Origin: a virus
Reading direction: 5' to 3' (one strand)
Virus record (IMG/VR): IMGVR_UViG_3300044710_000007
Location: 1 to 44,701 of that record
Length of the DNA stretch: 44,701 nt
A program made the translations under genes and the position numbers. The notes below the pieces were generated by a model. It was not told the origin of the DNA. It ran no database searches and saw nothing but the letters and a program-made list of their open reading frames with translations. Shown piece by piece: positions 13,196-32,277 of this stretch (positions within the stretch are counted from its first letter, which is position 1; the number at the start of each line of letters is the position of its first letter).

Positions 13196-13851
13196 CACGC
13201 CACCTTCGGGATTGTCTTGAGGCGCTCGATAAATGCCGCGCGCTTATCCTGCGCGATCTCGCGCGCCTGATACTTGCGATCCTTCGGCGTGAACTCCTCG
13301 ATCAGCGCACGAATGGCCGCACCGTTCTTGGTGGCGCCGTTGACGCGGGTAAGGTGCGCGAACAGTTCATCGTCGTTGATCTCTTTGGGTTGCTCCCACT
13401 CCTCGACAGAGGCCGCGTCGGTCAGGACCGGCTCCTGAGGAGTGAGAGCTTCCTCGACGGAGGCCGCGTCGGTCAGGACCGGCTCCTGAGGAGTGAGAGC
13501 TTCCTCGTCCACTACTGCGGACGGGTCTGGTGTGCGTTCGGTCTTGGCATTCTGGGGTGGCGGGGTCTGCACGCGCTTGGCCACTTCGCGCGCCGCGGCA
13601 GCCGCCTTCTGCGTCATCTGCGCTGGCGACACCGTGCCGGCCGGCTTCTCGCCAACGACCTGCGTGGTCGGCCGCTTCAGCAGCCTGTTCACCTGGGCGT
13701 CGGCCGACGCGCTCGCGTAGTCGAGCACTGTCTTGGCTTCGTTGCCTTCGGGAACATCGAAAGAAAGCTCGACGCGAACCTTGCGCGCCGGGGCATACTC
13801 CTCCGCGGATTTTACTCCGTCTTCGACTGATACTGTTCCTGCACGTATCAT
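13195..13851 (-). CDS. Hypothetical replication-module protein with tandem repeat linker
   Basis: A 218-aa protein. The ATG at 13851 has GGAGG five bases upstream; a TTG 12 bases earlier is part of that site. The N-terminal ~65 residues are a mixed alpha/beta domain (KVRVELSFDVPEGNEAKTVLD). A long Ala/Pro/Glu-rich linker contains two exact copies of a 17-residue unit (ALTPQEPVLTDAASVEE-type). The C-terminal ~65 residues are a helical domain (ELFAHLTRVN, then AAIRALIEEF). It is part of the replication operon. I do not recognise the family; a scaffold or adaptor role is only a guess. Confidence 0.6.
   Translation of the reverse strand: MIRAGTVSVEDGVKSAEEYAPARKVRVELSFDVPEGNEAKTVLDYASASADAQVNRLLKRPTTQVVGEKPAGTVSPAQMTQKAAAAAREVAKRVQTPPPQNAKTERTPDPSAVVDEEALTPQEPVLTDAASVEEALTPQEPVLTDAASVEEWEQPKEINDDELFAHLTRVNGATKNGAAIRALIEEFTPKDRKYQAREIAQDKRAAFIERLKTIPKVA
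13400..13501. repeat. Two tandem copies of a 51-bp unit
   Basis: Bases 13400-13450 and 13451-13501 are the same 51-bp unit with only a few differences near the left edge (for example GACAGAGG against GACGGAGG). The unit length is a multiple of three, so the overlying gene simply gains 17 residues. The near identity suggests a recent duplication in a flexible linker. Confidence 0.85.
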
Positions 13852-22359: not shown

Positions 22360-22529
22360 TGCACATTGCTCCTTTTGTCATGCGGCACATTTGCCGCGTT
22401 CAGTTCCTGGGTTTGTCGCAAAGTCTCACGAATATCACCCGAATAGACATAGGGCCGCTTGCCATACTTCTGATATGGCGATTTCCCAGTCCTACGGTCA
22501 CGCAGCTTGCGCGGTAGTCTTCGTTTCAT
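22356..22529 (-). CDS. Small basic protein
   Basis: A 57-aa protein (MKRRLPRKLRDRRTGKSPYQ at the start). The ATG at 22529 overlaps the stop of the in-phase repeat tail (ATGA at 22526-22529), which is why I prefer this start to a longer upstream frame in the repeat region. It is highly basic in its first 25 residues, consistent with nucleic-acid binding. No family is recognised. Confidence 0.6.
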   Translation of the reverse strand: MKRRLPRKLRDRRTGKSPYQKYGKRPYVYSGDIRETLRQTQELNAANVPHDKRSNVQ

Positions 22530-22675
22530 CGCTTGTCCTCTAGCTGTGCATGACAAAATGCTGACGCTTTGATGCGCCCGTACTCGGCCAGTGCTGACGC
22601 CTGGATGCGTTCGTATTCTGCCCATGCTGACACGTGTATACGCTCGTATTCAGCCCATGCTGACGCTTTGATGCG
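22526..22675 (-). pseudogene. Detached C-terminal tail of the repeat protein (frame +1)
   Basis: This segment continues the 11-residue repeats of the upstream gene for three more units but in the frame offset by one base. Its units read like KASAWAEYERI, VSAWAEYERI and QASALAEYGRI, and it ends with SAFCHAQLEDKR and a stop at 22526-22528. That stop forms an ATGA with the next gene. The offset arises around 22673-22690. Joined to the main frame it would give a 231-aa protein. Confidence 0.55.
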
Positions 22676-23075
22676 TTGCGTGAAAGAATGCTGACGCTTG
22701 TATACGCCTGTATTCAGCCCATGCTGACGCTTGTATACGCTCGTATTCGGCCAGTGCTGACGCTTGTATACGCTCGTATTCTGCCCATGCTGGCGCCTGG
22801 ATGCGCCTGTATTCAGCCCATGCTGACGCTTGTATACGCTCGTATTCGGCCCATGCTGACGCTTGTATACGCTCGTATTCGGCCAGTGCTGACGCTTGTA
22901 TACGCTCGTATTCTGCCCATGCTGGCGCCTGGATGCGCCTGTATTCAGCCCATGCTGACGCTCTGGCACGCTCGTATTTGGCCCGTGCTGACGCTCTGGC
23001 ACGCTCGTATTTGGCCCATGCTGACGCTCTGGCACGCTCGTATTCGGCCCATACTGACGCTGATAAGAGATTTTT
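22550..23075. repeat. 33-bp coding tandem repeats (about 14 units)
   Basis: About fourteen units of 33 bp encode the 11-residue motif (S/P)A(W/L)AEY(E/R)RIQA. Within them a 132-bp (four-unit) block is duplicated almost exactly: sequence from about 22737 reappears about 132 bases on. Because the period is a multiple of three, several reading frames stay open on both strands, and these are artefacts. The homogeneity suggests recombination or slippage. Confidence 0.85.
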
Positions 23076-23222
23076 TGCAGCCCAGTCCCAGTCGAATAGC
23101 GCCGCGACAGCTAAGCACTTTTCGAGAGTTACCTCGCCACCATTACCAAAATGCTCCTTGAATAGTTCTACTTGTTCGAAGCAAGCGCCTTTAGCTCTGA
23201 GCATTCTCAGTGTGATTTTCAT
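22650..23222 (-). CDS. Hendecad-repeat phage protein (truncated frame)
   Basis: A 190-aa protein with GGAAGG before its ATG. Residues 1-52 are a conserved domain seen at the head of similar phage proteins, with CFEQVELFKEHFG, then VTLEKCLAVAALFDWDWAAKNLL. Eleven 11-residue repeats follow, first of the ARASAWAKYER type and then IQASAWAEYER. The frame ends with SAFFHATHQSVSMG, where the last eight residues are out of phase. The repeats continue in the +1 frame to 22526. The repeats are probably alpha-helical and may form an extended rod. Function unknown. Confidence 0.65.
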   Translation of the reverse strand: MKITLRMLRAKGACFEQVELFKEHFGNGGEVTLEKCLAVAALFDWDWAAKNLLSASVWAEYERARASAWAKYERARASARAKYERARASAWAEYRRIQAPAWAEYERIQASALAEYERIQASAWAEYERIQASAWAEYRRIQAPAWAEYERIQASALAEYERIQASAWAEYRRIQASAFFHATHQSVSMG

Positions 23223-27013: not shown

Positions 27014-27238
27014 ATGTTGACAATTCTTCACAAAGAAAAGAGCGGGCATCAAAGCCTACAAAGTGCAAAATCTGTTTCCTTTAATCCAGGCAGTACAGAT
27101 ACCGAGACTTCGGTAGATGCTTTCGGATGTTCTGGTGAAGGTGGAGCAGTCGTGAATGGATATTGCCGCTACGGAAATGGCAGCATCTACGTGATGAATG
27201 ACACCGGAGCGACTGTGGCAGTTTACGATTTGGATTAA
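27014..27238 (+). CDS. Small hypothetical protein after terminase
   Basis: A 74-aa protein; the ATG at 27014 has AGGAG seven bases upstream, so it is preferred to an earlier GTG/CGA-region start. The sequence is Ser/Gly-rich with CSGEGGAVVNGYCRYGNGS and ends in strands (IYVMNDTGATVAVYDLD). It is AT-richer than terL. No family recognised; it may be a small decoration-type or regulatory protein. Confidence 0.5.
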   Translation: MLTILHKEKSGHQSLQSAKSVSFNPGSTDTETSVDAFGCSGEGGAVVNGYCRYGNGSIYVMNDTGATVAVYDLD

Positions 27239-27246
27239 GAATTGCC

Positions 27247-27340
27247 AGGCAGGTTTCTTGGTCAGGGGAGATACGGGTTCGAGTCCCGTTGCGGCAAAAG
27301 CGTAAGCCGTATCGTCTAATAGCTAGGATTACCCCGCCTC
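27247..27340 (+). other. tRNA-like element in permuted order (3' half upstream of 5' half)
   Basis: A T-arm with a perfect 5-bp stem (ACGGG / CCCGT, loop TTCGAGT, 27273-27289) is followed by TGCGGCA (27290-27296). About 8 bases later AGCCGTA (27305-27311) pairs with it at 6 of 7 positions (one G-T). A tRNA-type D-arm follows (TCGTCTAATAGCTAGGAT, 27312-27329; GTCT pairs with GGAT). CCCC (27332-27335) can pair with GGGG (27265-27268) as an anticodon stem. No clean anticodon loop with U33 is seen, so function is unproven. It may be a relic. Confidence 0.45.
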
Positions 27341-27370
27341 CTTGACATTGCGACTCATTCGCATTAAGTA
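27341..27370 (+). promoter_or_regulatory. Promoter-like repeat with Fur-box-like palindrome, copy 1
   Basis: The first of two exact 30-bp copies (other at 32083-32112). TTGACA (27342-27347) is a consensus -35; 17 bp later TAAGTA is a weak -10. Between them TGCGACTCATTCGCA is a palindrome (TGCGA/TCGCA), of the form seen in proteobacterial Fur-type boxes. It lies 37 bp before the first head gene. The sharing of the copy with the capsid promoter supports a late-promoter role. Regulation by a host iron regulator is inferred only from likeness. Confidence 0.6.
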
Positions 27371-27406
27371 AGGCCCATCTGCGACTCAACGTCCACGAGG
27401 GCCTGA

Positions 27407-27598
27407 ATGGCTGCATCCTCCAAGAACGACATGATCTCGCCCGCCGCGTCAGCGCTCGGGCTCGGAGATCAACTGCACCAGCAGCTCGAAGACAACCTTG
27501 ACGACGAGAAGAAAAAGAAGTTAATGGCGGCAACGCAGGGCGGCTACATGGACATGGGGTCGCCGGCCGCAATGTCTCTTTTCGGGCAGACCCGATGA
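27407..27598 (+). CDS. Small head-region protein
   Basis: A 63-aa protein with a weak ribosome site (GAGGG). The sequence is helical with DQLHQQLEDNLDDEKKKKLM. It starts the block led by the promoter-like repeat and is coupled by ATGA to the next small membrane protein. Similar small proteins precede portal genes in podoviruses. Function unknown. Confidence 0.6.
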   Translation: MAASSKNDMISPAASALGLGDQLHQQLEDNLDDEKKKKLMAATQGGYMDMGSPAAMSLFGQTR

Positions 27599-32082: not shown

Positions 32083-32112
32083 CTTGACATTGCGACTCAT
32101 TCGCATTAAGTA
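32083..32112 (+). promoter_or_regulatory. Promoter-like repeat with Fur-box-like palindrome, copy 2
   Basis: Exact 30-bp copy of 27341-27370: TTGACA (32084-32089), 17 bp, TAAGTA. The inner TGCGACTCATTCGCA is at 32091-32105. Five extra bases upstream (GCCTC, with one base inserted in copy 1) also match. It lies ~165 bp upstream of the capsid gene and would drive its strong late expression. The -10 match is weak, so an activator or a different sigma recognition is possible. Confidence 0.6.
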
Positions 32113-32277
32113 ACTCAACCGGGAGGCGCCGGCTCGCGCAGGCGCCGCCCCGCCGCGGGTGGCGAGCGCGACCATCCGCCCGCGGCACCCTTCTCACCGG
32201 CTTCTGCCGAGAGGGTTTCAGGCCCCCGTTTGGATACGGCCGACTTGGCTTTAACCAACTCAGGGATTTGAAACCCC
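32113..32277 (+). other. Structured 5' leader of the capsid gene
   Basis: This 165-bp leader is GC-rich and contains two strong hairpins: GGCGCC..GGCGCC around 32125-32145, and GCCGCGGG..CCCGCGGC (about 32152-32188). It ends with a weak ribosome site (CAGGGA) before the capsid ATG. Stable 5' structures may protect the transcript. No reading frame is seen. Confidence 0.45.

Follow-up and report, generated by a model that had tools for sequence, protein, structure and literature searches.

A putative YrlA-type tRNA-mimicking module between the terminase and portal regions of a small phage genome

Introduction

In a small phage genome, a short stretch of DNA carries the parts of a tRNA in swapped order, such that a T-arm and a 3' acceptor strand precede a 5' acceptor strand and a D-arm. 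The question raised by this locus is what such an arrangement represents, and the original prediction offered three options, namely a permuted tRNA, a tRNA mimic, or what is left of two recombined tRNAs. In algae and archaea, permuted tRNA genes contain a splicing motif and yield tRNAs in which the anticodon loop is normal again; in the two-piece (permuted) tmRNA, the 3' acceptor strand likewise comes first, separated by a short spacer from the 5' acceptor strand. Mimicry is exemplified by YrlA, a bacterial Y RNA, in which a tRNA-like domain imitates the D, T and acceptor arms and is modified by DusA and TruB, with PNPase placed on the tRNA-like side, while the basal (outer) stem tethers the RNA to the ring protein Rsr/Ro60 (PMC8394870). 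YrlA has been reported in several phages (PMC7765460), Y RNAs have been noted in mycobacteriophages (PMC12282133), and TROVE proteins are known in jumbo phages (PMC7824862).

Results

The window analyzed here, i.e., the whole stretch of 44,701 nucleotides, is the 44.7-kb genome of a phage and ends on both sides in a 127-bp direct repeat; its genes include those for terminase, head-tail connector (portal), capsid, DNA polymerase and primase. The element lies in a gap of 168 bp, bounded by a small gene that follows the terminase and ends at 27238 and by the next frame, which opens at 27407; it sits between two virion genes, with the terminase side upstream and the portal region downstream. Shortly after it begins a 31-bp repeat, one copy of which precedes the portal region and the other the gene for the major capsid protein; the repeat contains a TGCGA-CTCAT-TCGCA dyad and a poor -10, and its sequence is suggestive of a promoter or operator of the phage. 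Two other repeats were also observed in minus-strand frames: an array of 33-bp tandem repeats at 22493-23127, within frame 22650-23222, encodes an 11-residue repeat of the AWAEYERIQAS kind, and a near-perfect tandem duplication of 51 bp at 13400-13501 lies inside a frame.

The sole relative with this very element was an identical contig. Search of the region against phages by blastn left the region as a whole unmatched and returned short matches (~25 bases), a good number of which lie within tRNA genes or close to them, and no such element was found in the fetched loci of portal-protein relatives when scanned with Rfam or with the descriptor described below.

Table 1 Features of the element and its flanks, in window coordinates
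Feature	Position	Strand	Basis
Separate hairpin GATTAAGAA..GCC/GGT..TTCTTGGTC	27233-27263	+	Predicted fold, -9.4 kcal/mol
YrlA-like tRNA-mimic module, 71 nt: GGGG AGAT ACGGG-TTCGAGT-CCCGT TGCGGC-(AAAAGCGTAA)-GCCGTA TC GTCT-AATAGCTA-GGAT TA CCCC	27265-27335	+	MFE fold, covariance model R1, Rfam RF02553
Closing (anticodon-stem-like) helix, 5' strand GGGG	27265-27268	+	Pairs with 27332-27335; equivalent helix covaries in viral modules
AGAT linker, 4 bases, closing strand to T-arm	between 27268 and 27273	+	Sequence
T-arm	27273-27289	+	Sequence; Rfam tRNA T-arm match, 14.5 bits
Capped acceptor-like hairpin (10-nt loop)	27290-27311	+	6/6 pairs, one G-U
Hairpin strand TGCGGC	27290-27295	+	Sequence
Hairpin loop AAAAGCGTAA	27296-27305	+	Sequence
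Hairpin strand GCCGTA	27306-27311	+	Sequence
D-arm, tRNA-Glu type	27314-27329	+	Aligned to viral modules; A replaces G18
Closing helix, 3' strand CCCC	27332-27335	+	Sequence and alignment
31-bp repeat CTTGACATTGCGACTCATTCGCATTAAGTAA, copy 1	27341-27371	+	Repeat search, exact copies
31-bp repeat, copy 2	32083-32113		Repeat search, exact copies

Direct reading of the sequence confirmed that the T-arm, the two acceptor strands, the D-arm and the GGGG/CCCC strands of the original prediction are all present (Table 1). The acceptor pairing had been put at six of seven positions; the six pairs are indeed there, one of them G-U, whereas the seventh would-be pair is A-A. The D-arm contains the tRNA-Glu type of motif, TCGTCTA..TAGGA, with two irregularities, i.e., AG instead of GG in the D-loop and a G10-U25 pair, and the alignment places it two bases (TA) ahead of CCCC, the spacing being about one in other modules. 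When the module was folded alone, the minimum free energy structure was exactly the YrlA layout at -21.0 kcal/mol, which is within the range of other viral modules and ordinary for its composition (z -0.67). Global folds of the wider region did not favor this layout, other folds winning, although such folds are uninformative as they leave out tertiary contacts. A structural descriptor that was written after the element had been seen, so that its figures serve as a guide, and that comprises the T-arm, a capped acceptor, a D-arm carrying A14/A21 and a closing stem of 4 bp, matched once in the window versus never in 400 resamples drawn with a first-order Markov model of the genome, amounting to about 36 Mb over both strands; minus the closing stem, it matched three times in the same resamples. 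The margin is large, and the element is more than a product of chance.

When the threshold was relaxed, YrlA (RF02553) ranked first among 4227 Rfam families, with 15.2 bits over 27270-27329, and the alignment kept the T-arm, acceptor hairpin and D-arm in register and in the same order. The E-value was 1.7 for the stretch and 0.06 for the genome when YrlA alone was searched, and the score fell short of the gathering score of 69 bits; it is low because the D-arm is of the tRNA-Glu type, unlike that of the Rfam model. The D-loop G18G19, which docks with the T-loop in YrlA, is absent from the element by alignment, AATAGCTA replacing AATGGCTA. A pattern scan of bacterial genomes retrieved some sixteen clear-cut YrlA modules sharing this layout, which ARAGORN separates from tRNA arrays, and in that scan the Rfam gathering score was reached by three matches in two loci. 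The element has all the parts of such a permuted tRNA-like module, i.e., a T-arm, a capped acceptor stem, a D-arm and a closing stem, and the part order is that of YrlA, with the acceptor as a capped hairpin and the supposed anticodon stem as the closing helix; among the three options named at the outset, the tRNA mimic therefore proved the best fit.

Modules with this type of D-arm were indeed found in other viruses. Viral contigs were scanned for a T-arm followed by a Glu-type D-arm, an approach of which the output was mostly tRNA arrays, and a capped acceptor with no complete tRNA at the match was found in L064, L085, L116, L120, L128, L135, L142, L150 and L171. In L064, a classic YrlA of 41 bits (RF02553) adjoins a Glu-type module that scored only 16.9 bits. 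Another viral contig (L132:2500-2567) has a tRNA-Ser gene that continues without a break as a D-arm of the Glu type followed by a tail like that of a Y RNA, an arrangement that may be a tRNA fused to a Y RNA. A covariance model, R1, was built from the nine viral Glu-type modules with the window left out, and gave the element 47.8 bits over 27264-27337 (E about 7e-16; next best in the genome, 12.8 bits), a score that cannot decide against tRNA-array junctions since these reach up to 53.7 bits, although the acceptor pairing does separate the two. When the nine modules and the window were aligned, 93.5% of cells paired and 13 of the 20 pairs changed on both sides, far exceeding shuffles and slid controls, where acceptor pairing had been partly a selection criterion for the rows but closing-stem pairing had not. 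A TROVE gene was found in three of the nine records (L085, L120, L135) and, within the available sequence, in none of the other six; thus, the window is not alone in having a module without Rsr. When R1 was run on 299 Pseudomonadota genomes, no clear bacterial Glu-type module emerged, as most of the matches were too long (78-120 nt) and are probably tRNA arrays; ordinary YrlA was present in some of these genomes.

The other readings of the locus were weighed against this background. A permuted tRNA gene that is circularized and processed to a working tRNA, or a two-piece tRNA matured by RNase P and 3' processing in the manner of the two-piece tmRNA, would explain why the 3' half comes first, followed by a short spacer and the 5' half, as well as the pairing of the acceptor strands. 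No tRNA was found in the region by ARAGORN, or by Rfam at gathering score, and the rearrangement of the halves that had been suggested as a check led ARAGORN to call only 11 of 144 constructs, all marginal and with shifting identities (Pro, Thr and Gly among those printed), so that the order gives no consistent tRNA. There is no credible U33-type anticodon loop, as had been anticipated, no bulge-helix-bulge splicing motif seen by eye around GGGG and CCCC, and no CCA, and the mismatch noted above falls at position 1-72. The splicing endonuclease required by permuted tRNA genes is not known from bacteria and phages. The YrlA fold accounts for all the parts without any processing, and a permuted or two-piece tRNA is very unlikely; the permuted gene is not supported. 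The relic, in which a tRNA array would have lost both outer halves and kept one tRNA's 3' half next to the 5' half of a tRNA-Glu gene, is somewhat better placed, as such junctions occur in many phages with equally high R1 scores and the D-arm resembles that of tRNA-Glu. Nonetheless, in 92 junctions between complete tRNAs, the acceptor strands paired at no more than four of six positions, compared with all six in the element, and none of the 92 combined acceptor pairing with a 4-bp closing stem; moreover, the outer tRNA halves have left no trace. Descent from two recombined tRNAs is accordingly disfavored and appears improbable.

A stronger form of the YrlA-type reading is a full working Y RNA, bound by a host Rsr through an outer stem formed by CAGGCAGG (27246-27253) and CCTCCTTG (27337-27344). 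Seven of the eight pairs of this stem are possible, and the 5' sequence CAGGCA-GGTTTCTT resembles CAGGCAGCGGTTACTTC of Y RNA, the best match being a local one to L026. The flank similarity is weak overall, however: 26 of 500 random windows matched Y RNA flanks as well as the 5' flank did, and the 3' flank was not significant. Pairing between the two flanks was no better than in shuffles, a test that has little power for many genuine Y RNAs as well. The predicted fold favors instead a separate hairpin immediately 5' of the module, which overlaps the stop codon (27236-27238) of the upstream gene and would compete with any outer Y RNA stem, and the outer 3' strand, expected at the very place where the 31-bp repeat starts (27341), overlaps this repeat, which is found elsewhere without the module. 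No TROVE/Ro60 gene was detected in the genome, with neither a PF05731 match nor a significant tblastn match to the Ro60 of phage Olaya. A complete, Rsr-bound Y RNA is therefore doubtful; without a supported Rsr stem, a TROVE gene and G18G19, the element is classified as YrlA-like, short of full membership in the Y RNAs.

Complete cassettes were found in cultured phages. In the Xanthomonas phages Olaya (L190) and 10KY502B (L191), a Y RNA-like array that includes a Glu-type unit lies directly ahead of a gene whose product, annotated as hypothetical, has TROVE and Ro60 vWA domains; the Olaya array (L190:4740-5370) has about five units, one of them without a tRNA-like module, and in 10KY502B, a YrlA-like module (L191:2985-3052) overlaps a feature annotated as tRNA-Thr. 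Likewise, YrlA-like modules lie next to a TROVE protein in the Brevundimonas phage Kikimora, where one (L192:1942-2016) overlaps an annotated tRNA-Ser. Phages of Xanthomonas albilineans, among the matches listed, are distant portal relatives of the window.

Discussion

Overall, these results favor, with a probability of roughly 0.78, the interpretation of the element as the module by which a YrlA-type RNA, i.e., a bacterial Y RNA, mimics tRNA, here in an orphan, diverged or decaying state. It is read as an orphan because the Rsr stem is not recognizable and the genome has no Rsr gene; given the missing stem and the change in the D-loop, decay of the module is a serious possibility. Phage YrlA has already been reported, and the element is a variant of it.

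What the analysis shows is the arrangement of the parts, their predicted folding, the likeness to the YrlA family and covariation among related modules; transcription, binding of proteins and function are inferred. If the module is transcribed, the RNA would most likely be made by read-through within the late operon, together with the virion genes. It would fold without splicing, the T-arm stacking on the loop-capped acceptor-like stem, the D-arm coming next, and GGGG/CCCC closing the module. Such a folded mimic may at most dock host tRNA-binding proteins that recognize the stack of T-arm and acceptor, or, weakly, a host Rsr. It is also conceivable, though we consider it a long shot, that an Rsr-independent mimic serves as punctuation in the late phage transcript, in which case the capped acceptor would be nicked, between the messages for terminase and portal, by host RNase P or by tRNA 3' processing; alternatively, the module would serve as a binding site for host PNPase or tRNA enzymes and thereby protect or expose message ends.

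Swapped halves of the kind that catch the eye at this locus are characteristic of tRNA mimics of the YrlA type. The current Rfam YrlA model scores modules with a Glu-type D-arm poorly, even though they occur in several phages. Small cultured phages carry entire Ro60 and Y RNA cassettes that are annotated as hypothetical protein or, in places, as tRNA genes, and these phages allow direct tests of the role of phage Y RNA. An orphan module without Rsr, in turn, raises the question of whether the mimic alone does anything.

Comparison with known systems places the element as follows. Like the permuted tRNA genes of algae and archaea, it has the 3' half before the 5' half, but their splicing motif and normal anticodon loop were not seen in it. 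With the two-piece tmRNA it shares the succession of 3' acceptor strand, short spacer and 5' acceptor strand, and differs in that neither ARAGORN nor Rfam matches it to tmRNA, its acceptor does not start with GGGG, and its D-arm is of the tRNA type. The Olaya and 10KY502B arrays also contain a Glu-type YrlA module, although they have several Y RNAs beside a Ro60-like gene, while the window has a single module and lacks a gene of this kind. The Glu-type module of L064 neighbors the 41-bit YrlA and shows a possible distal stem, GACTC/GAGTC, unlike the element, but has the same kind of D-arm (TCGTCTAATGGCTAGGA), capped acceptor and 4-bp closing stem. Finally, the element departs from YrlA itself in its Glu-type D-arm, located two bases ahead of the closing strand, and in having neither a recognized Rsr stem nor an Rsr gene in the genome, whereas the T-arm, the capped 6-bp acceptor hairpin, the D-arm and the 4-bp closing stem follow in the same order in both, with the same four bases leading from the closing stem to the T-arm.
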